This document shows, in pieces, positions 4,741 through 17,125 of a DNA stretch of 18,388 nucleotides (its first letter is position 1; the number at the start of each line of letters is the position of its first letter). The position numbers and the translations under genes were made by a program. Source of the stretch: Gammaproteobacteria bacterium (GTDB taxonomy: Bacteria; Pseudomonadota; Gammaproteobacteria; Steroidobacterales; Steroidobacteraceae); the NCBI GenBank assembly GCA_009923475.1, contig RFTM01000001.1, positions 1 to 18,388 on the forward strand, written 5' to 3'. The notes under the pieces are model-generated. The model did not search any database, was not told the origin of the DNA, and was given only the letters and a program-made list of their open reading frames with translations.

Positions 4741-5160
4741 ATGTCCGCATTTCTGCCCGAAGATGTCGAGGCTTACGCGCTCGCCGCCTTCCACGCCGCA
4801 TTCCTGCTCGCCGTGCTTTGGCTGGGCGCATGGGCGGTGTTCTGGCGCGGCACGACCGCGGAGCTCGCGCGGCTCGATGCCGAGCTGCAGCGACAGAAGT
4901 ACCAGGTTTCCGCGAGCGAGGCAGAGGCAAGACGCCTTGCGGGGCTGATCCGCCAACTGGAGGACCGGCAGGTCGCCGAGGCGCGCTTTGGCGCCGCCGC
5001 CGTGGCGCCGCGCACGCAAGCCAACGGGTACGACATCGGCATCCGCATGGCCGGGTCGGGCGCGTCCGACGCCGAGATCGCCGCAGCCTGCGGCATGAGC
5101 CGCGAGGAGGCGGCGTTGCTGCAGCGTCTGCACGGCAGGCGCGCGCGCACCGCCGCTTGA
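4741..5160 (+). CDS. DUF2802-type membrane-anchored protein near flagellar genes
   Basis: The protein has 139 residues. One membrane segment lies at about residues 11-36 (AYALAAFHAAFLLAVLWLGA). It is followed by a likely coiled coil at about 39-80, rich in Glu, Arg and Leu, and by a C-terminal helix-turn-helix-like segment, GASDAEIAAACGMSREEAALLQRLHG in the family sense, at about 109-134. This layout and the DxEIxxxCGxSxxEAxLLxxLH pattern match DUF2802 proteins that often sit at the end of flagellar/chemotaxis operons in Pseudomonas and relatives. The molecular role is not known. A clear GGAGGA site three bases before ATG fixes the start, and a sigma-54-like promoter lies upstream. Confidence 0.72.
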   Translation: MSAFLPEDVEAYALAAFHAAFLLAVLWLGAWAVFWRGTTAELARLDAELQRQKYQVSASEAEARRLAGLIRQLEDRQVAEARFGAAAVAPRTQANGYDIGIRMAGSGASDAEIAAACGMSREEAALLQRLHGRRARTAA

Positions 5161-5164
5161 TGCG

Positions 5165-6013
5165 ATGGGCGCCGAAGGTCATAAGTTCCAGCAGCGGCTG
5201 AAGGCGGAGTTCATCCGTCCGGAGCTCGGCATCCCGGGCATGCCCGAGGTCGCGCTGCGGGTCGTCCGGCGGCTCGCCGACATCTCGTCGACGGGTCCGC
5301 AGGTCTCGCGTCTCGTATCCTCGGATCCGGCGCTCGCCGGCATGCTGCTGCGCAGCGCGAATTCGATCGATTTCAACCCCGCCGCGATGCCGACCGACGA
5401 CCTGGGTGTCGCGGTGCGGCGTCTGGGTTTCGACACCGTGCGGCGGTTGACGCTCTCCTACGCGCTGCAGCAGGTCCGCGATGAACCCCGCTATCGCATC
5501 GTCCATGGGCGCCTCGCGGCGATGTGGCAACGCAGCGTCGCGCTCGCCTCCATCGCGCGCGCGATGGCCAACCGCCTCGGCGGCGTGCCGCGCGAGCGGG
5601 CCAACACCGCCGGGCTGTTGCATACGGTCGGGCACATCTGGGTAACCGCCAAGGCGGCGTCGTCGCCGGCGGTGCTGCAGGACCCCATGCATCTCGAGAT
5701 GGTCATCAATGAGTGGCGCGTGCCGGCGGCGCGACGCCTCCTGCAGAGCTGGGGCATGGACCCGGAGTTCATCGAGGCCGTCTGCGACCACGAGTCCGCC
5801 GACCGCCCGGAGGGGCTGAACTCGCCGCTGATGGACCTGTTGTTCGTGTGTCAGCTGCTGCTGGCCTTCAAGGATGCGCCGATCGAACTGACCCAGCGCC
5901 TGTCCTCCTCGCTGGCGGCCGGGCGCCTTGGGCTGCGCGGGCGGGAACGTGACATCGTCTTCACGAACTCGGCCGAAGAGGTGCGCTCGGTGCGCAACGC
6001 GCTCTGCGACTGA
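5165..6013 (+). CDS. HDOD domain protein
   Basis: The protein has 282 residues and an HDOD domain over about residues 18-215. It shows IPGMPEVALRVVRRLADI, then VSRLVSSDPALAGMLLRSANS, a typical HDOD opening, and later AGLLHTVGHIWV where HD-type relatives have LLHDIG. HDOD proteins lack the full HD metal site. They act in signalling and are often linked to chemotaxis, motility or c-di-GMP circuits, but no enzymatic activity can be assigned. The start codon lies four bases after the upstream DUF2802 stop, so the two are probably co-transcribed from the sigma-54-like promoter. A motility-related role is inferred from position only. Confidence 0.85.
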   Translation: MGAEGHKFQQRLKAEFIRPELGIPGMPEVALRVVRRLADISSTGPQVSRLVSSDPALAGMLLRSANSIDFNPAAMPTDDLGVAVRRLGFDTVRRLTLSYALQQVRDEPRYRIVHGRLAAMWQRSVALASIARAMANRLGGVPRERANTAGLLHTVGHIWVTAKAASSPAVLQDPMHLEMVINEWRVPAARRLLQSWGMDPEFIEAVCDHESADRPEGLNSPLMDLLFVCQLLLAFKDAPIELTQRLSSSLAAGRLGLRGRERDIVFTNSAEEVRSVRNALCD

Positions 6014-6027
6014 GGCGCGGGCTTCGC

Positions 6028-6033
6028 TAGAAT
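6028..6033 (+). promoter_or_regulatory. Possible -10 element for the L,D-transpeptidase gene
   Basis: TAGAAT matches five of six bases of the sigma-70 -10 consensus and ends six bases before ATG 6040. Transcription would therefore start at or next to the start codon, giving a leaderless or nearly leaderless message. No good -35 hexamer is visible 16-18 bases upstream, since that stretch lies in the end of the HDOD gene. No Shine-Dalgarno sequence is seen before the ATG. Confidence 0.4.
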
Positions 6034-6039
6034 GCGGCC

Positions 6040-7068
6040 ATGTCCGGCCGTCGTGGAACACCGCCCCCTGTCCGCCACCGCCCCATCGGCCTGCCGCTGT
6101 GGGCAGCCGCCTTCGCGCTTTGGGTCCTTCCCGCGCATGCCGTCGAGTTCCCGCTACGGGACGATGGCGGCGAGCTCATCGGTGAGGTCAAGCGCGTGCG
6201 TACGCGCTATGAGGACACCCTCATCCAACTCGCACGCCAGTACAGCCTCGGCTACGAGGAGTTGCTGCGGGTCAACAAGGGCGTCGATCCGTGGTTGCCC
6301 GGCGCCGGCACCGAGATCCTCATCCCTGGGCAGCGGCTGCTGCCGCCCGGCGAGCGCAGCGGGATCGTGGTCAATCTCCCCGAGCACCGGATGTACTACT
6401 TCCCCAAGGCGGCGAAAGGCGAAACCCCGCGCGTGTTCACCTTCCCGGTGAGCGTCGGCAAGATGGACTGGCTCACGCCCCTCGGTGTGACGCGCATCGC
6501 GCGCAAACAGAAGGATCCGGCTTGGTATCCGCCCGAGTCGGTCCGCAAGGAGCACGCCGACCGGGGCGATCCGCCGCTGCCGAAGATCGTCCCGCCCGGC
6601 CCCGATAATCCGCTCGGCACGCGCGCGATGCGGCTCGACATCCCGGGCGGCTCCTATCTCATCCACGGCACCAACAACCCGGACGCGGTGGGCATGGCGG
6701 TCACGCACGGCTGCCTCCGCATGTACCCCGAGGACGTGGAACGGCTGTTCGACCTCACTCCGGTGGGCACGCGTGTCGCGCTCGTCAACGAGCCGCTCAA
6801 GCTCGCGCGTTTCGGCGGCGAGGTGTGGGTAGAGGTCCATCCGCCCATCGATGCCCAAGGGCAATCGGGCGCCGTCGACCTCGAGGCCTTCGAGGCGCGG
6901 CTCAACGAGCTGCTCGGCGAGGCCGAGGTGATCATCGACTGGGACGTGGCGCTCAAGGCGCTGCGTGAAGCGAAGGGCATGCCGGTGCTCATCGGGCTCG
7001 AGCTGGTCCCGGAGGGCGGCGCGCCCGATGCGTCGGCGGTCGCTCCTGCGCGCGGCGTAGCACCGTGA
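6040..7068 (+). CDS. Exported LysM and L,D-transpeptidase (YkuD/ErfK-type) protein
   Basis: This is a 342-residue secreted cell-wall enzyme. L,D-transpeptidases crosslink peptidoglycan or attach proteins to it in the periplasm. The signal peptide has a hydrophobic core at about residues 16-31 and probable cleavage after AHA34. A LysM-like peptidoglycan-binding segment follows at about 50-95 (DTLIQLARQYSLGYEELLRVN). The YkuD catalytic domain covers about 107-253. Its active site is visible: H209 in LIHGTN, and H223-G224-C225 in VTHGCLRMYPEDVERLF, with C225 as nucleophile. The C-terminal tail is predicted to be soluble. Length and order match the ErfK/YbiS/YcfS/YnhG group. The stop overlaps the next gene's GTG. 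Confidence 0.92.
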   Translation: MSGRRGTPPPVRHRPIGLPLWAAAFALWVLPAHAVEFPLRDDGGELIGEVKRVRTRYEDTLIQLARQYSLGYEELLRVNKGVDPWLPGAGTEILIPGQRLLPPGERSGIVVNLPEHRMYYFPKAAKGETPRVFTFPVSVGKMDWLTPLGVTRIARKQKDPAWYPPESVRKEHADRGDPPLPKIVPPGPDNPLGTRAMRLDIPGGSYLIHGTNNPDAVGMAVTHGCLRMYPEDVERLFDLTPVGTRVALVNEPLKLARFGGEVWVEVHPPIDAQGQSGAVDLEAFEARLNELLGEAEVIIDWDVALKALREAKGMPVLIGLELVPEGGAPDASAVAPARGVAP

Positions 7069-8567
7069 GCGACGGCGGCGATGCACGCAACGAGCAGTTG
7101 CGGCTCTCGCCGTGGCGGTTGCTCCCCGGACCGCTGATCTTCCTCTTCACGCTGCTCTGGCCGGCGCCCGAGGGCTTCGCCGGGACGGCATGGCCGGTGC
7201 TCGGCCTCACGCTCTGGATGGCGCTGTGGTGGGCGCTCGAGGCGGTCCCGCTCGCCGCGACGGCGCTGCTGCCCCTCATCGTCGTGCCGCTCGTGGGCGT
7301 GCCGCAGACCCGGCAGGTGCTGGGCGAGTACGCCAACCCGTCGGTGATGCTGCTCATCGGCGGCATGCTGGTCGCGGTGGCGATGGAGCGCTGGCGGCTG
7401 CACGAGCGGATGGCCTTCGCGATCATGCGCCGGGTCGGCGCCGAGCCGCGACGGCTCGTGCTTGGCATGATGGTGTCGACCGCGTTCGTCAGCATGTGGG
7501 TCTCCAACACCTCGACGGCGCTGATGATGTTGCCTGTGGCGATGGCGATCGCCCTGCTCGCGACGCCGGCGGACGGCGCCGGGGCCGGCGAGTCCGGGTC
7601 GCCGACCGGCGCGGCGACGGGATCTGACGCGCAGAATTTCGCGGCGGCCATGGTCCTCGCGGTGGCTTACGGCGCGACCATCGGCGGCATGGGCACGCTG
7701 ATCGGCACCCCGACCAATGCGCTGGTCCAGGGCTTCATGGCGCGAAACTTCGGCGTCGACATCAGCTTCGTCGACTGGCTGGCCTTCGGGCTGCCCACCG
7801 TCGCGCTGCTGTTGCCCTGCGCCTGGCTCTGGCTGGTGCGGGTCGGCACGCCCTTCGATCCCCGCGCCGTTCCCGTGGCGGTCGAAGCCGTCGAAGAGGG
7901 GTGGCAGCGGCTCGGGCCGATGTCCGCGGAGGAGCGACGCATCGCCGCCGTGGCGCTGGCGGCCGCCGCATTCTGGGTGCTGCGGCCTTGGCTCGCGCAG
8001 TGGCCGCCGTTCGCGCGGCTCGACGATACCGTGATCGCCGTCGCGGCGGGGGTCGCGCCGTTCATCATCCGTGCCAGGGACGGCGGGGCGCTGCTCCGCG
8101 CCGCCGATATCCAAAGATTGCCTTGGGCGGTCATGCTGCTGTTCGGGGGCGGGCTCGCGCTCGCGGCCGCCATCCAGGAAAGTTCGCTCGCCGACACGCT
8201 CGGCGTCGCACTGGCCGGGCTCGGCAGTTGGCCGCTGCCATTGCTGATCGTCACGATGGTGCTCGCGCTGATCGCGTGGACCGAGCTCAACAGCAACGTC
8301 TCGACGGCCGCGACGTTCATGCCGATCATGGCCGCGGTGGCGGCCGGTTCCGACCATTCCGTGTTGACGCTGGTGGCGCCCGCGGCGATGGCCGCCTCGG
8401 CGGGCTTCATGCTGCCGGTCGGCACGCCGGCCAACGCCCTGGTCTTCGGCACGGGCCGCGTGACGCTGCGGCAGATGCTGCGCGCCGGCGCGGGGGTCAA
8501 CCTCGCCGCGGCCATCATCATCTCGGTGGTGGGCTACCTCGCCTCGGGCTGGCTCTCGAAGGGCTGA
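7065..8567 (+). CDS. SLC13/DASS-family anion transporter (dicarboxylate type)
   Basis: This is a 500-residue integral membrane protein with about ten to twelve hydrophobic segments. It carries both SNT signatures of divalent anion:sodium symporters: VSNTSTALMMLP (S147-N148-T149) and LNSNVSTAATFMP (S410-N411-V412). The paired GTPxNAL motifs, TLIGTPTNALV and VGTPANALV, lie at the two re-entrant tips. Such proteins import dicarboxylates such as succinate or malate, usually with Na+; sulfate or citrate are alternatives. A Gly/Ala/Ser-rich insert at about residues 167-185 looks like a cytoplasmic loop. The GTG start overlaps the upstream stop as GTGA. The stop lies two bases from the convergent SDR gene. 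Substrate is not assignable. Confidence 0.88.
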   Translation: MSDGGDARNEQLRLSPWRLLPGPLIFLFTLLWPAPEGFAGTAWPVLGLTLWMALWWALEAVPLAATALLPLIVVPLVGVPQTRQVLGEYANPSVMLLIGGMLVAVAMERWRLHERMAFAIMRRVGAEPRRLVLGMMVSTAFVSMWVSNTSTALMMLPVAMAIALLATPADGAGAGESGSPTGAATGSDAQNFAAAMVLAVAYGATIGGMGTLIGTPTNALVQGFMARNFGVDISFVDWLAFGLPTVALLLPCAWLWLVRVGTPFDPRAVPVAVEAVEEGWQRLGPMSAEERRIAAVALAAAAFWVLRPWLAQWPPFARLDDTVIAVAAGVAPFIIRARDGGALLRAADIQRLPWAVMLLFGGGLALAAAIQESSLADTLGVALAGLGSWPLPLLIVTMVLALIAWTELNSNVSTAATFMPIMAAVAAGSDHSVLTLVAPAAMAASAGFMLPVGTPANALVFGTGRVTLRQMLRAGAGVNLAAAIIISVVGYLASGWLSKG

Positions 8568-8569
8568 AC

Positions 8570-9346
8570 TCAGACCAGCGCGGCGTGGTGCCCGCCGTCG
8601 ACCGCCAAGGTGACGCCGTTGACGAAGCTTCCGGCGTCGCTCGCCAGCAGCAGGGCGGGGCCCACGAGCTCGCGAAGCTGCCCGGCGCGCTTCGGCGGGA
8701 TGCGCGCCAGGTACTCCCGGCCGGCCTCGGAGCCGAGCCAGTCGTCGTTCATCTCGGTGACGAACCAGCCGGGCGCGATGGCGTTGACCCGGATGCGGTG
8801 GCGCACGAACTCGAGCGCGAGGCACCGCGTGAGATGGGTGAGCGCCGCCTTCGAGGCCGCGTAGGCGGCGTAACCGGGCGCACCGCCGAGCGCCAGCACG
8901 GAGGCGATGTTCAGGATGCAGCCGGGCTTGCCGGCGGCGATCATGCGCCGCGCCGCCTCGGCGCTGAGGTCCCAGGCCGCATCGAAATTGGTGGCGAAGG
9001 TGGCGTCGCGCTCGGCGATGCCGGTCTTGAGGAACATGCCGGTGCGGGCGATGCCGGCGTTGTTCACCAGCAGGTCCGGCACGCCGAGCTCCGCTTCGAC
9101 GCGCTCGAAGGCCGCCGGGATCGCCGCCGCATCGGTGACGTCGAGCTGCAGCGGCAGCACGCGGGCGCCGGTGGAACGCAGGACGTCGGCCGCCTCGTCG
9201 AGCCGCTCGCGACGCCGCGCGACCAGCGCGACCGCCGCGCCCGCTTGCGCGAAGGCGCGCGCGAGCTCTGCGCCTATCCCGCTCGAAGCGCCCGTGACCA
9301 AGGCCACCCGGCCATCGAGACGGAAAGAATGGGTGGGGTCGCTCAT
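8570..9346 (-). CDS. SDR family oxidoreductase (classical, Rossmann fold)
   Basis: This is a 258-residue classical short-chain dehydrogenase/reductase. It has the cofactor loop TGASSGIG (residues 18-25), NNAG (95-98), and the catalytic S149, Y162 and K166 in the YxxxK pattern. The basic run ARRRER after beta-2 suggests NADP(H). The segment AIAPGWFVTEMND and the tail LAVDGGHHAAL are typical of FabG-like SDRs. The substrate is unknown; 3-oxoacyl or sugar/alcohol reduction are possible. The start at 9346 has a good AGGAG site (9354-9358). It converges on the SLC13 gene with a two-base gap and diverges from the SAM hydrolase gene. Confidence 0.9.
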   Translation of the reverse strand: MSDPTHSFRLDGRVALVTGASSGIGAELARAFAQAGAAVALVARRRERLDEAADVLRSTGARVLPLQLDVTDAAAIPAAFERVEAELGVPDLLVNNAGIARTGMFLKTGIAERDATFATNFDAAWDLSAEAARRMIAAGKPGCILNIASVLALGGAPGYAAYAASKAALTHLTRCLALEFVRHRIRVNAIAPGWFVTEMNDDWLGSEAGREYLARIPPKRAGQLRELVGPALLLASDAGSFVNGVTLAVDGGHHAALV

Positions 9347-9391
9347 GCCGCTGCTCCTTCGTGGTTACGCGCCCGATGATAGCCTAGCGAT

Positions 9392-9967
9392 GTGAAGACG
9401 CATGCCGACAACGGGACTCGGTCCGGAGCGATCACGCTGACCACGGATTTCGGCCTTCGAGACCCGTTCGTCGGCGTCATGAAGGGCCGCATCCTCGGGC
9501 GCTTCCCCGTCGAGGGCCTGAAGCGGTGTGGTATCGGTCCCGTGAGCGCCACCTTCCACGGTCGCGACATCTTCGCGCCGCTGGCCGCGGAACTCGCAGC
9601 CGGTCGTGTCTCGCCCGCTGAGCTCGGAGCCCGGGTCGAGCGCATCTCGCCGTCTCCGGTCGCGGCACCGGTGGTGACTGAGGGCCGGATCGCGGGGCAG
9701 GTGATCACCGTCGACCATTTCGGCAACCTGATCACGGACATCGACGCTGGCCTGCTGTTGCGGGTGCGTGAACCCCGGATCCTCGTGGCGGGTCGCGAAC
9801 TGCCGTTGCGTCGAACCTATGGAGAGTGCTCACCGGGGACGCCCTTGGCCCTGATCGGTTCGTTCGGAGTGCTGGAGATCGCGGTCACCGAGGGCCGTGC
9901 AGTCGATGTGCTCGGGGTGCCGAGGGGCGCCCCGGTCATCGTCCTCGACGGGTCAGGCGCCGGCTGA
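9392..9967 (+). CDS. SAM hydroxide adenosyltransferase (SAM hydrolase, DUF62) with core segment missing
   Basis: Members of this family cleave S-adenosylmethionine to adenosine and methionine using water. Normal proteins have about 250-290 residues; this one has 191. The N-terminus is a textbook match (ITLTTDFGLRDPFVGVMKG). Residues 36-39 (GRFP) are then followed within about 12 residues by PVSATFHGRDIFAPLAA, which normally lies some 95 residues after the start motif. The missing part should hold the Asp of the DxxHxxP region, DPGVG and GPDNG, which form the SAM site. The C-terminal domain (TVDHFGNLITDI and later) is intact. The frame is kept across the junction near 9508-9540. The protein is probably inactive as written. 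The GTG start was chosen because no ATG fits. Confidence 0.75.
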   Translation: MKTHADNGTRSGAITLTTDFGLRDPFVGVMKGRILGRFPVEGLKRCGIGPVSATFHGRDIFAPLAAELAAGRVSPAELGARVERISPSPVAAPVVTEGRIAGQVITVDHFGNLITDIDAGLLLRVREPRILVAGRELPLRRTYGECSPGTPLALIGSFGVLEIAVTEGRAVDVLGVPRGAPVIVLDGSGAG

Positions 9968-10005
9968 CGCTCTGCGTCCCCGGCGGGTCGGAGGCGAGGC
10001 CGACC

Positions 10006-10033
10006 TTGCGCGAGGGCCCGTTTTCGTTATAGT
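10006..10033 (+). promoter_or_regulatory. Sigma-70-like promoter upstream of the PA3496-like gene and lysAC
   Basis: TTGCGC (10006-10011) and TATAGT (10028-10033) are separated by 16 bases. The -10 matches five of six consensus positions and the -35 three of six. Transcription would start near 10040 and give a leader of about 60 bases before ATG 10101. That leader is locally AT-rich (10060-10090) against a very GC-rich background. It is the only promoter seen for the two-gene unit ending at 12967. Confidence 0.5.
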
Positions 10034-10100
10034 GCGGCGTCCGGCTCGGCTGGGCATCGCGTAACACATTGATTCTTAAAGATTAGGATCCATCCTCCCC

Positions 10101-10328
10101 ATGTCTGAACGGGATTCCGACAGCTTCGAGATCGACGAGGACCTGCTGGGCGAGAGCAACCTGCAGGAAGAGAACCAGGATTACGATCGATTTCTCGACC
10201 GCGTCGAGCGGCGTGGGCGTCCGGTGCCCGGCAAACGTGGCAAAGCGGCTTGGAGCAAGCTCGAGGAGGTCCTGGCCGAGAAACGTCTCGCCAAGGACCT
10301 GCGGGAAGTCTACGACGACGAAACCTGA
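10101..10328 (+). CDS. Small acidic PA3496-like protein (putative envelope integrity)
   Basis: This is a 75-residue, highly charged protein. The N-terminal half is acidic (SDSFEIDEDLLGESNLQEEN). The C-terminal half has the pattern AWSKLEEVLAEKRLAKDLREVYDDE, which resembles the conserved end of PA3496-family proteins (RRxIExLLExRxLRxxLxDDF). No signal peptide or membrane segment is visible. Family members are widespread in gammaproteobacteria and are only loosely described as envelope-integrity proteins, so function is uncertain. The stop lies eight bases before the lysAC GTG, so the two are probably co-transcribed. The coding potential is supported by charge pattern, promoter and spacing. Confidence 0.72.
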   Translation: MSERDSDSFEIDEDLLGESNLQEENQDYDRFLDRVERRGRPVPGKRGKAAWSKLEEVLAEKRLAKDLREVYDDET

Positions 10329-10336
10329 GCGGCGCC

Positions 10337-12967
10337 GTGTCCGGGGCCGCATCTTCGGGGCGCGTCTGGCGGGTGCTGAAGTTCGGCGGCACCAGCGTCT
10401 CCACTGAACCCAATTGGCGCAGCATCGCTGCGACCATCCGTGATCGGGGCGCCGACGGCAGCCCCGTGCTCGTCGTCCATTCGGCGTTGAGCGGGATCAC
10501 CGACCGGCTCGAGCGCTTGCTCGCCGCTTGCGTGGCGGGTCGACAGATCGAAGAGCTCGAGTCGCTCCGCGCGCGCCACCTCGAACTGGCCGCCGCGCTC
10601 GGCTTGGGGGCGGTCCCGGCCTTCGACCGCCAGTTCGCGCTCTTGGAGGCCTGCGCGAACGGCATCGCCGCGCGGCGACAGGCCGATGCCCGGGACCGGG
10701 CGGCGGTGATGGCGTTCGGCGAGCTGCTCGCGACCACGCTCGGCGTCGCCTACCTTGCGACGCAGGGCATCGAGGCCGCATGGCTCGACGCGCGCACCGT
10801 GTTGCGCGCGGAGTCCCGTGAGGGCGCGACGCGCGAGTCCGGCTATCTTTCGGCGACCTGCGACTTCCGGCCCGACAGCGCCGTGCAGTCGCGGCTCGCG
10901 GCGCTCGGCCGCGTGGTCTTGACCCAAGGCTTCATCGCGAGCGACGCGGCGGGCGACACGGTATTGCTCGGACGCGGCGGTTCGGACACCTCCGGCGCGT
11001 ATTTCGCCGCTTTGCTTGCGGCGCGCGAGCTCGAGATCTGGACCGACGTGCCCGGCATGTTCAGCGCCAACCCGCGCTCGACGCCGGCGGCCCGTCAGCT
11101 GCGGTCCCTGTCCTACGATGAAGCACAGGAGATCGCCACCGCGGGCGCGAAGGTGTTGCACCCGCGATGCCTGTTGCCGGTGCGCCAGCACGGCATCCCG
11201 CTCGCCGTCTACGCCACGCAGGCCCCGCAGCTCGGCGGCACGCACATCAGCGAGACGCCGGCGGGCAAGGGCGCCCAGGTCAAGGCGGTCTGCGTCAAGA
11301 ACGGCGTCACGCTCGTGGCCATGGACAGCCCGGGCATGTGGCATCAGGTCGGGTTCCTCGCCGATGCGTTCGCCGTCTTCAAGCGGCACGGGCTGTCGGT
11401 CGACCTCGTCTCCACCAGCGAGACCAACGTCACGGTGTCGCTCGATCCGCAGGCCAATGCGCTCGGCGACGACGTGCTCGATGCGCTGCAACGCGACCTC
11501 GCGCCGCTCTGCCGCACCAAGGTCATCGGCCCCTGCGCTTCGGTGAGCCTCGTCGGCCGCAACATCCGCGGCATCCTGCCGCGGCTCGGCGATGCGCTAG
11601 GCGTGTTCGCCGAGCAGAACATCCACCTCGTGAGCCAGGCCGCCAACGACCTGAACCTCACCTTCGTGGTCGACGAGTCGCAAGGTGCGCGGCTGGTCGC
11701 GGATCTGCACGAGATGCTGATCGCGCCGGTCGCGGACGATGCGGTGCTGGGACCGACCTGGCAGTCGCTGATGCGCACGGCGGTCCCTGGCGCAGGCGCG
11801 GGGTCGGGCGAGGGCGCTGCGCGCGGCGAGCCGCTGCCTTGGTGGCGGCAGCGTCGCGAGACCTTGCTTTCCTTGATGCGGGACCGGGATGCCGCGTACG
11901 TGTACGACACCGCGACCATCGGCGCCCGTTGCCGCGAACTGCGGGGGTTGCGCGCGGTGTCTCGCCTGCACTATGCGATGAAGGCCAACCCGCATCCGGC
12001 GGTGCTCGCGGCCGTGCACGCGGCCGGCGTCGGCATCGAGTGCGTCTCGCGGGCCGAGGTCGAGCATGCGCTTGCCTCGCTGCCGGGCCTTGCGGCGAAC
12101 GAGATCCTGTTCACGCCCAATTTCGCGCCCCGCGACGAATACCGCTGGGCGCTCGATGCCGGGGTGCGGCTCACGCTAGACAACCTGCATCCGCTGCGGC
12201 AATGGGCAGGGCTGTTCCGCGGCCGCGAGGCGTTCCTGCGCCTCGATCCGGGCGCGGGCCGTGGTCACCACGCCCATGTGCGCACCGGCGGGACCGCCTC
12301 GAAGTTCGGCATCCCCTCGGGCGACCTCGCCGAGGCCGCGCGCCTCGCGCGCGAGGCCGGGCTGCGGGTGACCGGCCTGCATGTCCATGCCGGCAGCGGC
12401 ATCGGCGATGCGGGCCACTGGGCCGCGGTGGCGGAGTTCCTCTTGGGCGCAGCGGAGCACTTCCCCGACGCCCGTGTGTTCGACCTGGGCGGCGGCCTCG
12501 GCGTGCCGGATCGCAGCGGTCGCGCCGCCCTCGACCTCGCGGCGCTCGATGCCGCGCTGCTCGCGCTCGCGCCGCGGCTCGGCGGACGCGAACTCTGGCT
12601 GGAGCCCGGCCGATACCTGGTGGCGGAGGCCGGCGTGCTGCTCGCGCGCGTCACCCAGCTCAAGGACAAGGGCGCGAGCGCCTTCGTCGGCGTCGCCACC
12701 GGCATGAATTCCTTGATCCGCCCCGCGCTCTACGGCGCGCACCACGACATCTTCAACCTCACGCGTCTCGACGACGGCGGCGAACGTCGCGAGTTCGAGG
12801 TGGTGGGTCCGATCTGCGAGACCGGCGACGTGCTGGGTCACGGCCGGCTGCTGCCCGCGGCGACCTGCGAAGGCGACGTGCTGCTGGTCGCCACGGCGGG
12901 CGCTTACGGCGCCGCCATGGCCTCACACTACAACTTGCGGTCGCCGGCCCCCGAGATCGCGCTCTGA
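10337..12967 (+). CDS. lysAC: Bifunctional aspartate kinase / diaminopimelate decarboxylase
   Basis: This is an 876-residue fusion of the first and last enzymes of lysine synthesis. The aspartate kinase half covers about residues 10-455. It has LKFGGTSVST (K15), LLGRGGSDTSGAY and IWTDVPGMFSANPR, then two ACT-type regulatory segments beginning near QVKAVCVKNGVTLVAMDS and ASVSLVGRNIRGILPR. The PLP-dependent decarboxylase half covers about 500-876. It has LHYAMKANPHP (PLP lysine K549), HVHAGSGIG, DLGGGLGVPD, LEPGRYLVAEAGVLL and GPICETGDVLG. Such fusions are known in Xanthomonas and Xylella. The GTG at 10337 was chosen because it lies eight bases after the upstream stop and just before the kinase fold. 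The 3' end overlaps hisIE by 40 bases on the opposite strand. Confidence 0.93.
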   Translation: MSGAASSGRVWRVLKFGGTSVSTEPNWRSIAATIRDRGADGSPVLVVHSALSGITDRLERLLAACVAGRQIEELESLRARHLELAAALGLGAVPAFDRQFALLEACANGIAARRQADARDRAAVMAFGELLATTLGVAYLATQGIEAAWLDARTVLRAESREGATRESGYLSATCDFRPDSAVQSRLAALGRVVLTQGFIASDAAGDTVLLGRGGSDTSGAYFAALLAARELEIWTDVPGMFSANPRSTPAARQLRSLSYDEAQEIATAGAKVLHPRCLLPVRQHGIPLAVYATQAPQLGGTHISETPAGKGAQVKAVCVKNGVTLVAMDSPGMWHQVGFLADAFAVFKRHGLSVDLVSTSETNVTVSLDPQANALGDDVLDALQRDLAPLCRTKVIGPCASVSLVGRNIRGILPRLGDALGVFAEQNIHLVSQAANDLNLTFVVDESQGARLVADLHEMLIAPVADDAVLGPTWQSLMRTAVPGAGAGSGEGAARGEPLPWWRQRRETLLSLMRDRDAAYVYDTATIGARCRELRGLRAVSRLHYAMKANPHPAVLAAVHAAGVGIECVSRAEVEHALASLPGLAANEILFTPNFAPRDEYRWALDAGVRLTLDNLHPLRQWAGLFRGREAFLRLDPGAGRGHHAHVRTGGTASKFGIPSGDLAEAARLAREAGLRVTGLHVHAGSGIGDAGHWAAVAEFLLGAAEHFPDARVFDLGGGLGVPDRSGRAALDLAALDAALLALAPRLGGRELWLEPGRYLVAEAGVLLARVTQLKDKGASAFVGVATGMNSLIRPALYGAHHDIFNLTRLDDGGERREFEVVGPICETGDVLGHGRLLPAATCEGDVLLVATAGAYGAAMASHYNLRSPAPEIAL

Positions 12968-13593
12968 CGCGCGGCGTGCCTGCGGCCGAGCTCGCGCTCG
13001 ACCTCGAGCAGCGGCACGCCCCGCAGGCGCAGCAGGACCAGCAGGTGATAGAGCAGGTCGGCGGACTCGCCGACGAGCTCATCGCGGCCGCCGGCGGTCG
13101 CGGCCAGCGCCGTCTCCACCCCTTCCTCGCCGACCTTCTGCGCGACCCGCTTCACGCCCTGGGCGGCGAGCCGGGCCGTGTAGCTGCCCTCCGGGGCCTC
13201 CTGCAAGCGGGCGGCGATCAAGGATTCGAGTTGCGCGAGGAACGCGCCGGGCGCATCGCCGTCCCCGAAGCAGGTGGCACTGCCGGTGTGGCAGGTCGGA
13301 CCCTGCGGGAGCGCCTGCACCAGCAGCGTGTCGCGGTCGCAGTCCGCGGCGATCGAGCGGACCAAGAGCCCGTGACCGGTCGTCTCGCCTTTTTCCCATA
13401 GCCGGCTGCGGCTGCGGCTCCAGAACACCACGCGACCGCGCCGCAGCGTCTCGCGGGCGGCCTCGGCGTTCATCCAGCCCACCATGAGCACGCGCCCGTC
13501 CTGGGCGTGCTGCACCACCGCCGGCAGCAAGCCGTCGCCCTTGGCGAAATCGAGGGACGCGAGTGTGGCTTCGGTCTCGGCATCGGGTCGCAT
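12928..13593 (-). CDS. hisIE: HisIE: phosphoribosyl-AMP cyclohydrolase / phosphoribosyl-ATP pyrophosphatase
   Basis: This is a 221-residue bifunctional enzyme of histidine synthesis. The HisI half covers about residues 15-120, with VLMVGWMNAEA, VVFWSRSRSRLWEKGETTGH, AADCDRDTLLVQ and GPTCHTGSATCF; the Cys and Asp residues bind Zn and Mg. The HisE half covers about 125-215, with KVGEEGVETALAA and ADLLYHLLVLL. HisE hydrolyses PR-ATP to PR-AMP and HisI then opens the ring, so both consecutive steps are covered. The start at 13593 has GGAGG upstream (13601-13606 region). The gene follows the hisF-like frame by 25 bases in the usual hisF-hisIE order. Its end overlaps the convergent lysAC end. Confidence 0.94.
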   Translation of the reverse strand: MRPDAETEATLASLDFAKGDGLLPAVVQHAQDGRVLMVGWMNAEAARETLRRGRVVFWSRSRSRLWEKGETTGHGLLVRSIAADCDRDTLLVQALPQGPTCHTGSATCFGDGDAPGAFLAQLESLIAARLQEAPEGSYTARLAAQGVKRVAQKVGEEGVETALAATAGGRDELVGESADLLYHLLVLLRLRGVPLLEVERELGRRHAARQSAISGAGDRKL

Positions 13594-13618
13594 GCGATCG
13601 CCTCCGCGGTGATCCGTG

Positions 13619-14242
13619 TCAGGGTCGTACGACGATGCCGGCGGCGCGCAGCGTCGTCTTGAGGTCGGGTATGGCGAGCGCGCCCGAGTGGAACACGCTG
13701 GCCGCAAGCGCGGCATCGACACCGGCATCGCGGAACACCTCGACGAAGTGCCGCGCCTCGCCGGCGCCGCCGGAGGCGACCAGGGGCACGGAGCAGCAGG
13801 CCCGCGCCTGCCGCAACTGCGCGAGGTCGTAACCCTGGCGCACGCCGTCGCTCGCCATGCAGTTGAGGACGATCTCGCCGGCGCCCCGGGCCTGCGCCTC
13901 GCGCAGCCATTCGAGGGTGTCGCGTCCGGCCTCGCCCGAGCGTCCAGGATCGCCGGTGTAGCGGTGCACGCGCCACCCCGCGGGCGTCGTCTGGCTGTCG
14001 ACGCCCACCACGACGCACTGTGAGCCGAAGCGCCGGGCAAGCGCGTCGATCAGCGAGGGATCCTCGAGCGCCGGCGAATTGACCGACACCTTCTCCGCGC
14101 CGGCCCCGAGCACCGCCTCGGCATCCGCCACCGAGCGGATGCCGCCCGCGACGCAGAACGGGATGTCGAGCACGCGCAGCAGCACCCAGGGGCGCAGCGA
14201 CCACGAGGAGTAGTTCTTGTTGGCGATGTAGAGCTGGTACAT
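13619..14242 (-). CDS. hisF: Chimeric HisF: GST N-terminus joined to HisF residues from about 80 onward
   Basis: HisF is the cyclase subunit of imidazole glycerol phosphate synthase, normally about 255 residues. From residue 26 (DIPFCVAGGIRS) to the end this protein is normal HisF: KVSVNSPALED, CVVVGVDSQ (the second catalytic Asp), GAGEIVLNCMASDGVRQGYD, PLVASGGAG and DAALAASVFHSG. Its first 25 residues (MYQLYIANKNYSSWSLRPWV and following) are the start of a glutathione S-transferase instead. The first catalytic Asp and the first beta/alpha units of the barrel are absent, so it should not be active. The join falls in LRVLDIPF (bases 14156-14179), where both families can share sequence. ATG 14242 is the usual GST start; 14257 and 14260 are in-frame alternatives. 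Confidence 0.85.
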   Translation of the reverse strand: MYQLYIANKNYSSWSLRPWVLLRVLDIPFCVAGGIRSVADAEAVLGAGAEKVSVNSPALEDPSLIDALARRFGSQCVVVGVDSQTTPAGWRVHRYTGDPGRSGEAGRDTLEWLREAQARGAGEIVLNCMASDGVRQGYDLAQLRQARACCSVPLVASGGAGEARHFVEVFRDAGVDAALAASVFHSGALAIPDLKTTLRAAGIVVRP

Positions 14243-14301
14243 GCGCCGATTGTGCATCACGGCGCGGCGCCGCAGCGACCCCGCCTACCGCCGCTACGCG
14301 C

Positions 14302-14979
14302 TCAGCGGACGATCGCCAGCAGTTCGATGTCGAAGACCAAGGTCGCGTTGGGCCTGACGGCCGGCGGGGCACCGCGCTGCCCATAGGCGAGCTCGGGCGG
14401 GCAGACCACGCGGCTGCGGCCGCCGACCCGCATGGCCTGCAGCGCCTCGGTCCAGCAGGCGATGACGCCGCGCACCGCAAAGGTCTCCGGTTCGCCGCGG
14501 GCTCGGGAGCTGTCGAACACCTTGCCGTCGGGCAGGCGACCCTCGTAGTGCACGCGCACGATGTCGGTCGCGCTCGGGGTCGGGCCCTCGCCGGCCTGCA
14601 GCGGTTGCAGCAGGGCGCCGGCGGGCAGACGGACCGTGCCCGGCGTCGCCGCCGCGTCCGCCAGCGTCGCGGCTCCGGCCTGCCGCTCGCGCGCGGCGAG
14701 CGCTTCGCGGCGCGCCGCCTGCAGGGCATGCAGTTTCGGCGCCTCGGCGGCGAGGTCGACCTTGGAGGGCCTGCCGAGCGCCCCATCCTCCAGGCCCTGC
14801 TGGACGACCGCGAGCTCCTCCGGCGTCAGCGCGAAGTCCTCGAGGGTGCGCGAGATGAGCTGGCCGAGCGTGTAGAGCGTCGGCGCGTCGTCGGACGGGG
14901 CCGGCGAGGGCGCGGCGGATGCTGCGGGCAAGCAGCAGAAGAGCAGTGCGACCACCGACAGCATTCTTGTTGTTCTCAT
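14302..14979 (-). CDS. Exported FKBP-type peptidyl-prolyl cis-trans isomerase
   Basis: This is a 225-residue periplasmic protein-folding catalyst. The signal peptide covers about residues 1-22 (basic start, then MLSVVALLFCCLPAASA). An FKBP N-terminal dimerisation-like helical region spans about 30-105 (LGQLISRTLEDFALTPEELAVVQQGLEDG). The FKBP domain lies at about 115-225: IVRVHYEGRLPDGKVFDSS, GVIACWTEALQAMRVGGRSRV, PELAYGQRG and ATLVFDIELLAI. The usual GVI.GW motif is GVIACW, a small change at the ligand pocket. It resembles FklB/FkpA/Mip-like enzymes. The ATG at 14979 has GGAG upstream. It diverges from the S8 protease gene with a 67-base gap. Confidence 0.9.
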   Translation of the reverse strand: MRTTRMLSVVALLFCCLPAASAAPSPAPSDDAPTLYTLGQLISRTLEDFALTPEELAVVQQGLEDGALGRPSKVDLAAEAPKLHALQAARREALAARERQAGAATLADAAATPGTVRLPAGALLQPLQAGEGPTPSATDIVRVHYEGRLPDGKVFDSSRARGEPETFAVRGVIACWTEALQAMRVGGRSRVVCPPELAYGQRGAPPAVRPNATLVFDIELLAIVR

Positions 14980-15005
14980 GTCGTGCTCCGATGACGGTCT
15001 TTGGT

Positions 15006-15033
15006 ATCTTGCGCCTTGCACAAGCCCTGTCAA
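15006..15033 (-). promoter_or_regulatory. Sigma-70-like promoter for the FKBP gene
   Basis: Read on the minus strand, a perfect TTGACA (15033-15028) is followed after 16 bases by CAAGAT (15011-15006). The -35 is perfect and the -10 is weak, with three of six matches including the key second A and final T. It lies 27 bases upstream of the FKBP ATG at 14979, inside the 67-base gap shared with the protease gene. Confidence 0.5.
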
Positions 15034-15046
15034 CCGGGAGCCGCCG

Positions 15047-17125
15047 ATGACCCATGTCCTGTCCCCTGGAGCGACCGCGCGCGCGGTGCTCGGCCTGTTT
15101 TCGGTTCTGGTCGTGGCGGGCGGGGTCCCCGCCCTGCAGGGCGCCGAACGCAACCCCGCTGCCCGCGAGCCATCGGGTGCGCCCGTCACCGGCCGATTGA
15201 TCATCGGCCTGCGCGGCGGCGCAGGTGGCGCCGAGTCGGCGATGAGCGATGGCGTCCGCGTCGCCGCCCTCGCGACACGGACGCGCCTCGCGCTCGGCAA
15301 GGCCTCGGCCATCGCGCCGCAGATGCAGGCGCTCACCGTCGAGGGCATCAGCGACGGGCGTTCGCTCGCCGACACGCTCGCCGTGCTGCGCGCCGATCCA
15401 GAGGTCGCCTTCGCCGAGCCCGACCAGCGGCGGCACCGGCACCTCGTGCCCAACGATCCGCTCTTCAACGCGCAGTGGTACCTGCAGTCGGCGCAGCCTG
15501 CGGCCATCGCCGCCGCCACGGCCTGGGAGTCGAGCGCCGGCGACAACGCCACCGGCAGCGACGGCATCGTGGTGGCCGTGCTCGACACGGGCGTGCGCTT
15601 CGACCACCCGGACCTCAAGCGCGCGAGCGCCGCCGGGCGCCTGCTGCCCGGCTACGATTTCGTGAGCGGCGATGGCGGCGGCTCGTTCAAGACCGCCAAC
15701 GACGGCGACGGCCGTGATGCCGACCCGTCCGATCCCGGCGACTGGGTGACCTCAGCCGAGGCCACCGGCGGCTGCACGCAGGAAGACAGTTCCTGGCATG
15801 GCACCCGCGTGTCCGGGATCATCGGCGCGCTCGCCAACAATTCCACCGGCGTCGCGGGCTCGACCTGGCGCCCCTGGCTGCTGCCGGTGCGGGTGCTCGG
15901 GAAGTGCGGCGGCTACGATTCGGACATCATCGCCGGCATGCGTTGGGCGGCCGGGCTCAGCGTGGGCGGCATCCCCGCCAACCCGTATCCCGCGCGCATC
16001 CTCAACCTCAGCCTCGGCGGCACCGGGGCCTGCTCGGCGGCTTACCAGAGCGCGATCGACGAGATCGTGGCGCGCGGCGTGGTGGTGGTCGTGTCGGCGG
16101 GCAACGAGTCGGGCGCGGTCGCCTCGCCGACCAACTGCCGCGGCGCGGTGTCGGTGGTGGCGCTGCGGCACGTGGGCACCAAGGTGGGCTTCAGCAACCT
16201 CGGCGCGATCTCCACCATCGGCGCGCCCGGCGGCAACTGCGTCAACACCGGCGCCGGGCAGCCTTGCCTCTTCTCGATCGACACCACGACCAACGCCGGG
16301 CTCACCACGCCGGGCGCGGACACCTACACCGACCAGTTCAACTTCAACGTGGGCACCAGCTTCTCGGCGCCCATCGTCTCGGGCGTCGCGGCGCTGATGC
16401 TGTCGGTGAACGGCAACCTCAACAGCGCGCAGGTGACGGCGCGGCTGCGTGAAGGCGCGACCGCCTATCCGTCGCCGCCGGCCGGCATCCCGCTGTGCCA
16501 CGAACCTGCCGGTCCCAACGACCTGCAGTCGAGCGAATGCGCCTGCAGCGCTGCGACCTGCGGCGCGGGGATGCTGAACGCCGTGGGCGCGGTGCGTGCG
16601 GCGCGACGGCCCATCGCGGCGGTCGCGTTGCCGTCCTCGGTGTCGGCCGGCCAGAACTTCACGCTGCAGGGCGGCGTTTCGGCGGCCTCCTGCGGACGCA
16701 GCGTCGGCACCTACGCCTGGACCGTGGTGGACGCGGGCACGGGCGGTTCCATCGTCTCCGGCGCCAACGCGGCCACCGTGCAGGCGGTCGCGCCCACCGC
16801 CGGGACCTTGCGGTTGCGGCTCACCGTGACCGACAACACCGGCGCCACCGATGTCGCCGACGTGAGCGTCACCAGCAGCGCGGCCACGAGCAGCGCGCCC
16901 GCCTCGACCGGCGGCATTGCCTGCCCTGTCGCGATCAATCCCAACGCCGGCAGCGGCGGCGGGAGCGGCAGTGGCGGCAGCGGCGGGGGCACGACCACGC
17001 CGACGACGCCCGCCAGCGGCGGCGGGGGAGGCGGCGGCGCGCCCGATCTGCTGTCGCTGCTCGCGCTCGCCCTGTGGGGCTTGGCGCGCGCGGCATCCAC
17101 GACCCGTATCCGGAGAACTGCATGA
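15047..17125 (+). CDS. Exported S8 (subtilisin-like) serine protease with GlyGly-CTERM-like tail
   Basis: This is a 692-residue secreted protease. The signal peptide covers about residues 1-33. A propeptide of the inhibitor I9 or autotransporter-like kind spans about 45-130 and ends PEVAFAEPDQ. The S8 domain covers about 140-500, with the triad D180 (VAVLDTGVRFDHPDL), H251 (SSWHGTRVSGII) and S438 (GTSFSAPIVSGVAAL). Paired Cys residues suggest disulfides. A PKD/Ig-like domain lies at about 525-615. A Gly/Ser/Thr linker then leads to a short hydrophobic helix and an Arg-rich end, resembling GlyGly-CTERM signals that are processed by rhombosortase after type II secretion. ATG 15047 has GGGAG upstream. 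The stop overlaps the next ATG. Confidence 0.92.
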   Translation: MTHVLSPGATARAVLGLFSVLVVAGGVPALQGAERNPAAREPSGAPVTGRLIIGLRGGAGGAESAMSDGVRVAALATRTRLALGKASAIAPQMQALTVEGISDGRSLADTLAVLRADPEVAFAEPDQRRHRHLVPNDPLFNAQWYLQSAQPAAIAAATAWESSAGDNATGSDGIVVAVLDTGVRFDHPDLKRASAAGRLLPGYDFVSGDGGGSFKTANDGDGRDADPSDPGDWVTSAEATGGCTQEDSSWHGTRVSGIIGALANNSTGVAGSTWRPWLLPVRVLGKCGGYDSDIIAGMRWAAGLSVGGIPANPYPARILNLSLGGTGACSAAYQSAIDEIVARGVVVVVSAGNESGAVASPTNCRGAVSVVALRHVGTKVGFSNLGAISTIGAPGGNCVNTGAGQPCLFSIDTTTNAGLTTPGADTYTDQFNFNVGTSFSAPIVSGVAALMLSVNGNLNSAQVTARLREGATAYPSPPAGIPLCHEPAGPNDLQSSECACSAATCGAGMLNAVGAVRAARRPIAAVALPSSVSAGQNFTLQGGVSAASCGRSVGTYAWTVVDAGTGGSIVSGANAATVQAVAPTAGTLRLRLTVTDNTGATDVADVSVTSSAATSSAPASTGGIACPVAINPNAGSGGGSGSGGSGGGTTTPTTPASGGGGGGGAPDLLSLLALALWGLARAASTTRIRRTA
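16948..17041 (+). repeat. Low-complexity Gly/Ser/Thr-coding linker in the protease gene
   Basis: Two runs of GGC/AGC-type codons encode Gly/Ser and poly-Gly blocks, separated by a Thr/Pro stretch. They form the flexible linker just before the C-terminal membrane helix of the protease. Such simple GC-rich runs are prone to length variation and sequencing error. Confidence 0.7.

Follow-up and report, generated by a model that had tools for sequence, protein, structure and literature searches.

Organization of the hybrid open reading frame

The window analysed here is a stretch of 18,388 nucleotides that makes up the whole of one contig (C1; 71.5% GC) in a Steroidobacteraceae assembly (G000) of 2.45 Mb and 635 contigs, 86.9% complete and 3.6% contaminated. 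Its minus strand carries an open reading frame of 207 amino acids (14242-13619) with an ATG at 14242 and a stop codon at 13621-13619; in the longest form the frame starts at a GTG at 14260 and encodes 213 amino acids. The translated product has the N-terminal start MYQLYIANKNYSSWSLRPWVLLRVLDIPF and then continues as CVAGGIRSVADAEAV. Three segments follow each other along this strand. The 5′ end of a GST gene, with the ATG at 14242, occupies 14178..14242 and was assigned from protein and DNA matches to the GST of relatives, among them contig C23 of the relative G015. Next comes the junction tract, no longer than 22 nt (14156..14177), which reads RVLDIPF and fits HisF throughout and GST in part, as deduced from the overlap of the blastn alignments to G015 contigs C23 and C10 and from the base alignment. 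The remainder (13619..14155) is the 3′ part of hisF with its stop, from codon 78 of 255 in G015 numbering, identified by the Pfam family PF00977 and by 87% identity to the HisF of G015.

The neighbouring genes, both on the minus strand, belong to two different surroundings. Downstream lies hisIE (12928..13593; start codon at 13593 assigned by reading the sequence), which encodes the PRA-CH and PRA-PH domains (PF01502 and PF01503 in 12931-13590) and is colinear with G015 C10. On the GST side lies a gene for an FKBP-type peptidyl-prolyl isomerase (14302..14976), with PF00254 in the enclosing frame, a G015 protein match at 14976-14308 and colinearity with G015 C23.

HisF is the cyclase subunit of imidazole glycerol phosphate synthase (PF00977). 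The family profile matched the hybrid frame at an E value of 5.1e-43 over positions 70-227 of 228, and the best match among relatives was the HisF of G015, with 87% identity over its residues 63-255. HisF sequence begins at about residue 29 of the 213-amino-acid form. The hybrid is thus HisF-like from about residue 71-78 on, with hisIE next to it as in G015, but everything before about residue 71 of the barrel is absent, and the window holds neither hisA nor hisH upstream. The region of Asp11 is lost with this first part and the Asp130 motif VVVGVD is retained; we take these two aspartates to be the catalytic residues of HisF. The loss of the first catalytic aspartate and of part of the barrel had been correctly anticipated.

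The GST portion is much shorter. Hybrid residues 1-22 (14242-14177) match the GST of relatives G008 and G004 with 76% identity over query residues 3-35, and the matches to the GST start within the genus are 27-33 residues long at 69-78% identity. Conversely, the GST of G015 used as a query against G000 found the hybrid frame at an E value of 6.5e-12. Pfam called no GST domain on the short GST piece of the hybrid frame; since the profiles are silent on so short a piece, the label GST relies on the matches to relatives and on the DNA alignment. Compared with the GST of the genus (G015 C23, G008 C94, G004 C34), the hybrid has the first 22-29 residues in common and lacks the rest, so that it contains neither a complete N-terminal thioredoxin-like domain nor the C-terminal helical domain.

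The GST matches in relatives, the PF00977 match and the alignments to G015 confirm the predicted make-up of the frame, that is, the start of a GST followed by the last 70% of HisF, and agree with the original prediction of a GST-HisF chimera. The encoded protein would not be expected to function either as HisF or as GST.

The junction tract

The comparison of the window with G015 covers positions 4836-16355, where the fetched stretches of C10 and C23 end. Window segments 4836-9497 and 9515-14177 are colinear with contig C10 of G015, and segments 14156-14294 and 14281-16355 are colinear with contig C23, at 75-82% identity. The two sets of alignments overlap at 14156-14177. This places the junction at the R-x-L-x-I-P-F stretch (here RVLDIPF), where it had been proposed on the basis of the window alone. 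The 22-nt tract agrees with the hisF of G015 at 22/22 bases and with its GST gene at 18/22 (four differ). The value of 22 nt is an upper bound for the shared tract because the assembly lacks the sequences that this organism natively has at the two places. Where the junction falls, the run of bases that the two genes of a relative have in common in register measures 3-6 nt in 19 of 21 genomes; it reaches 9 nt in G015 and 15 nt in G012.

The joined reading frame is open and in phase across the junction, which lies 4.2 kb from one contig end. An open in-frame junction is no proof of a real fusion. Repeats around it were also considered: three weak direct pairs (the longest 30 nt, 70% identical) and two inverted 14-nt pairs (86%) were detected, none of which explains the junction.

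The two parent genes are separate loci in relatives

Both loci, with their flanks, were fetched from four relatives (G015, G008, G004 and G033). In none of them do the two sides of the window fall together: the his side and the GST side correspond, respectively, to contigs C10 and C23 in G015, C13 and C94 in G008, C60 and C34 in G004, and to two separate stretches of the one contig of G033. This analysis was extended to the genes themselves. A GST-type and a HisF match were present in 25 genomes, from which we dropped G031, G032 and G036 (GST only about 45% identical) and G034 (GST match of 20 residues); the 21 retained have a GST of at least 57.8% identity over at least 222 residues and a HisF match over 254 or 255 residues. 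Both genes are full length and separate in 21/21. They lie on different contigs in 20 of them, a placement that gives no distance by itself, and in the remaining one (G033, a single contig of 4.65 Mb) they are on the same strand, 1.2 Mb apart by the shorter way. In G001, hisF lies 210 kb deep in a 454-kb contig without the GST gene.

The missing halves and the flanking sequences in the source assembly

The original prediction had named the finding of the HisF N-terminus and the GST C-terminus at contig ends as the sign of a mis-join. Neither half was found anywhere in G000. PF00977, which covers both HisF and HisA, has a single match in this assembly, the hybrid frame (6/6 candidates scored). 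With the HisF protein of G015 as query and all candidates scored, the HisF N-terminus was not found in G000; the query returned the hybrid frame and one weak match (E 0.012). Likewise, the GST protein of G015 revealed no GST C-terminus in G000, all candidates being scored, and matched the hybrid frame and four more distant places. At the DNA level, the segment running from hisH into the beginning of hisF recovered the window; its other matches in G000 were short and scattered, the best covering 60 bases (E 5e-7). The DNA searches scored 40 of 305, 444 and 608 first-look candidates, and their absences are therefore less firm than those of the protein searches, in which all were scored.

Sequences from the far sides of both breaks are nevertheless present in G000. 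The his operon of G015 begins with hisG, followed by hisD, C, B and H, named by reading the translations. DNA from its start matched one place in G000 (C151:1-356), where the sequence breaks off within hisG after about 66 codons. Contig C151 is colinear with G015 C10 over its whole 3.6 kb; relative to the order in G015, about 5.8 kb are missing between it and the window. On the GST side, contig C123 corresponds to a part of G015 C23 that lies past the GST gene, and a gap of about 2.9 kb separates it from the window. Both contigs are 79-85% identical to G015.

No second case of the fusion

Occurrence of the same fusion in related isolates had been put forward as the sign of a real gene. Searching 60 genomes including the window's own, 55 of which had a match, we found no single match spanning both parts in the 59 relatives. 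HisF is full length (residue 1 to at least 253) in 31/31 of the relatives' loci examined. Among GTDB species, a listing that may omit records of the window's own genome, 79 of the best 80 of 538 HisF candidates are full length (residue 3 or earlier to at least 245), and the single other one (L115) is cut by the start of its contig, at base 1. By their titles, these 80 loci include metagenome-assembled Gammaproteobacteria and Steroidobacteraceae, and also named Lysobacter, Dyella and Rhodanobacter. Two loci with a match starting at query residue 7 (L070 and L076) passed the test for a full-length HisF and were set aside. Several GST matches run past residue 35, at 31-54% identity (to 143 in G036, 128 in G032 and at most 106 in others); these are GST-type genes and not fusions, as full-length GST matches showed. 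A conserved fusion gene was rejected, as no independent genome among the relatives or the best 80 of 538 GTDB loci provided a second case. The literature search yielded no HisF-GST fusion in the excerpts it returned, which dealt with unrelated ergothioneine work only.

Further suspect joins in the source assembly

A second lesion was found within the window. The open reading frame at 9392-9967 on the plus strand encodes a SAM hydroxide adenosyltransferase (PF20257, PF01887) of 191 amino acids. Its N-terminal domain lacks some 80 residues, with the reading frame preserved, at about 9497-9515. The open frames at the corresponding loci of seven relatives are 271-296 amino acids long. This lesion is probably another assembly join.

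Contig C123 (L051) itself looks chimeric. Its positions 1 to about 430 encode a piece for which Pfam gave hits to Gfo/Idh/MocA-type oxidoreductase domains, none of them reaching the cut-offs, and which has a single weak match (E 8e-4) among 39 relatives. This piece passes, with a change of frame, into a native gene whose product carries a 2OG-Fe(II) oxygenase domain, and no obvious shared tract is visible at the join.

Origin of the hybrid frame

We consider it very likely that the hybrid frame results from an assembly mis-join of two ordinary genes and does not encode a new protein. The his operon, broken inside hisF, and a GST/FKBP/protease neighbourhood, broken inside the GST gene, would have been joined at a short similar stretch encoding R-x-L-x-I-P-F. 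Speaking for this are the separate positions of the two genes in relatives, the lack of a second fusion among the genomes searched, the HisF and GST halves not found in G000, the end of C151 in hisG and the further suspect joins; speaking against it are the open, in-phase frame, the missing halves not turning up at contig ends, the short runs shared in relatives and the near lack of repeated 21- and 22-mers in the window. The cause may be a short k-mer that both places share or, where coverage was low, a chimeric read. The source genome is presumably a metagenome bin, as the kinship table and the number of contigs suggest, and a de Bruijn assembler with k starting near 21 could traverse such a tract at low coverage. 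Under an independent-base model for 2.45 Mb at 71.5% GC, about 48 shared pairs of 21-mers and 14 of 22-mers are expected by chance; within the window alone, a single 21-mer recurs and no 22-mer does.

The excerpted text of a study of metagenome bins (PMC8172020) ties mis-assembly by k-mer assemblers to high GC and low coverage, and describes sets of k from 21 up and paths without read support. The bins that it terms 'Chaos' are tied to high GC and to coverage below about 30X. G000 resembles them, as far as these excerpts describe them, in its high GC content and in joins that are not borne out by other evidence. It differs in that those bins were diagnosed by read re-assembly and the examples given are far less fragmented, whereas the present diagnosis comes from the comparison of assemblies. 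Furthermore, in the mock-community tests of that text (PMC8172020) all chimeric sequence lay at the ends of contigs, unlike the junction described here, which is 4.2 kb away from one. A variant of the artefact would be a physical chimera formed in the library or during amplification by template switching, and then used by the assembler at low coverage. It would fit a shared tract that may be short, as well as the join in C123 with no obvious shared tract, and we regard this particular route as rather unlikely.

Of the two origins offered in the original prediction, mis-join and deletion, the first is strongly favoured and the second did not stand. A real microhomology-guided deletion between about codon 22-29 of the GST gene and codon 70-77 of hisF would agree with a junction that keeps the frame and falls in a short similar tract, and with the failure to find the missing HisF and GST halves in G000. 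A simple deletion is, however, contradicted by C151, which runs upstream of and into hisG, and by C123, beyond the GST gene, because they hold sequence from both sides that a deletion would have removed. In relatives the interval is also large, with 1.2 Mb in G033 and no less than 210 kb in G001. A simple genomic deletion was thus rejected and is almost certainly not the origin of the junction. The main alternative to a mis-join is a real inversion or translocation that brought the two loci together and left a truncated, probably dead, hybrid gene. No loss of the far sides is needed in this case, hence the presence of C151 and C123 does not speak against it. It is nonetheless quite improbable: G000 yielded no reciprocal junction, although both places fall in gaps; the junction was seen in no relative examined; the his operon would be broken; and an artefact is the simpler cause in view of the other suspect joins in G000. 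Were the fusion true, the histidine operon would be broken in the source species. A large real rearrangement in which the GST start is fused to a truncated hisF, the strain may need histidine and the hybrid protein is made strikes us as very improbable.

Read as a mis-join, the frame serves as a warning. Gene fusions, pathways that seem absent (here from hisG to hisF) and gene neighbourhoods taken from one fragmented, GC-rich assembly should be checked against relatives first.

Other genes of the window and their neighbourhoods

On the GST side, the start of the GST gene and the stop of the FKBP gene are separated by 59 bases (14243-14301). The gene beside GST was compared in 28 GST-type loci, each from a different genome within the genus and family and including the two loci of the query proteins, with names given by reading translations: a methyltransferase-like gene was present in 15 of the 28, a sulfite-oxidase-like gene in two, and neither was found in 11. 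The arrangement in the window is a further suspect join of the assembly, but it may be real variation.

On the plus strand, a single open reading frame (10250-12967) contains amino-acid kinase, ACT and PLP-dependent decarboxylase domains and reads as a putative fused aspartate kinase/diaminopimelate decarboxylase. The DNA across it is colinear in G015 and G004. Further upstream, the order of the plus-strand frames between 284 and 4626 is like that of a flagellar block, with FlhF-, FlhG-, FliA- and motor-protein-like products named from their translations only.
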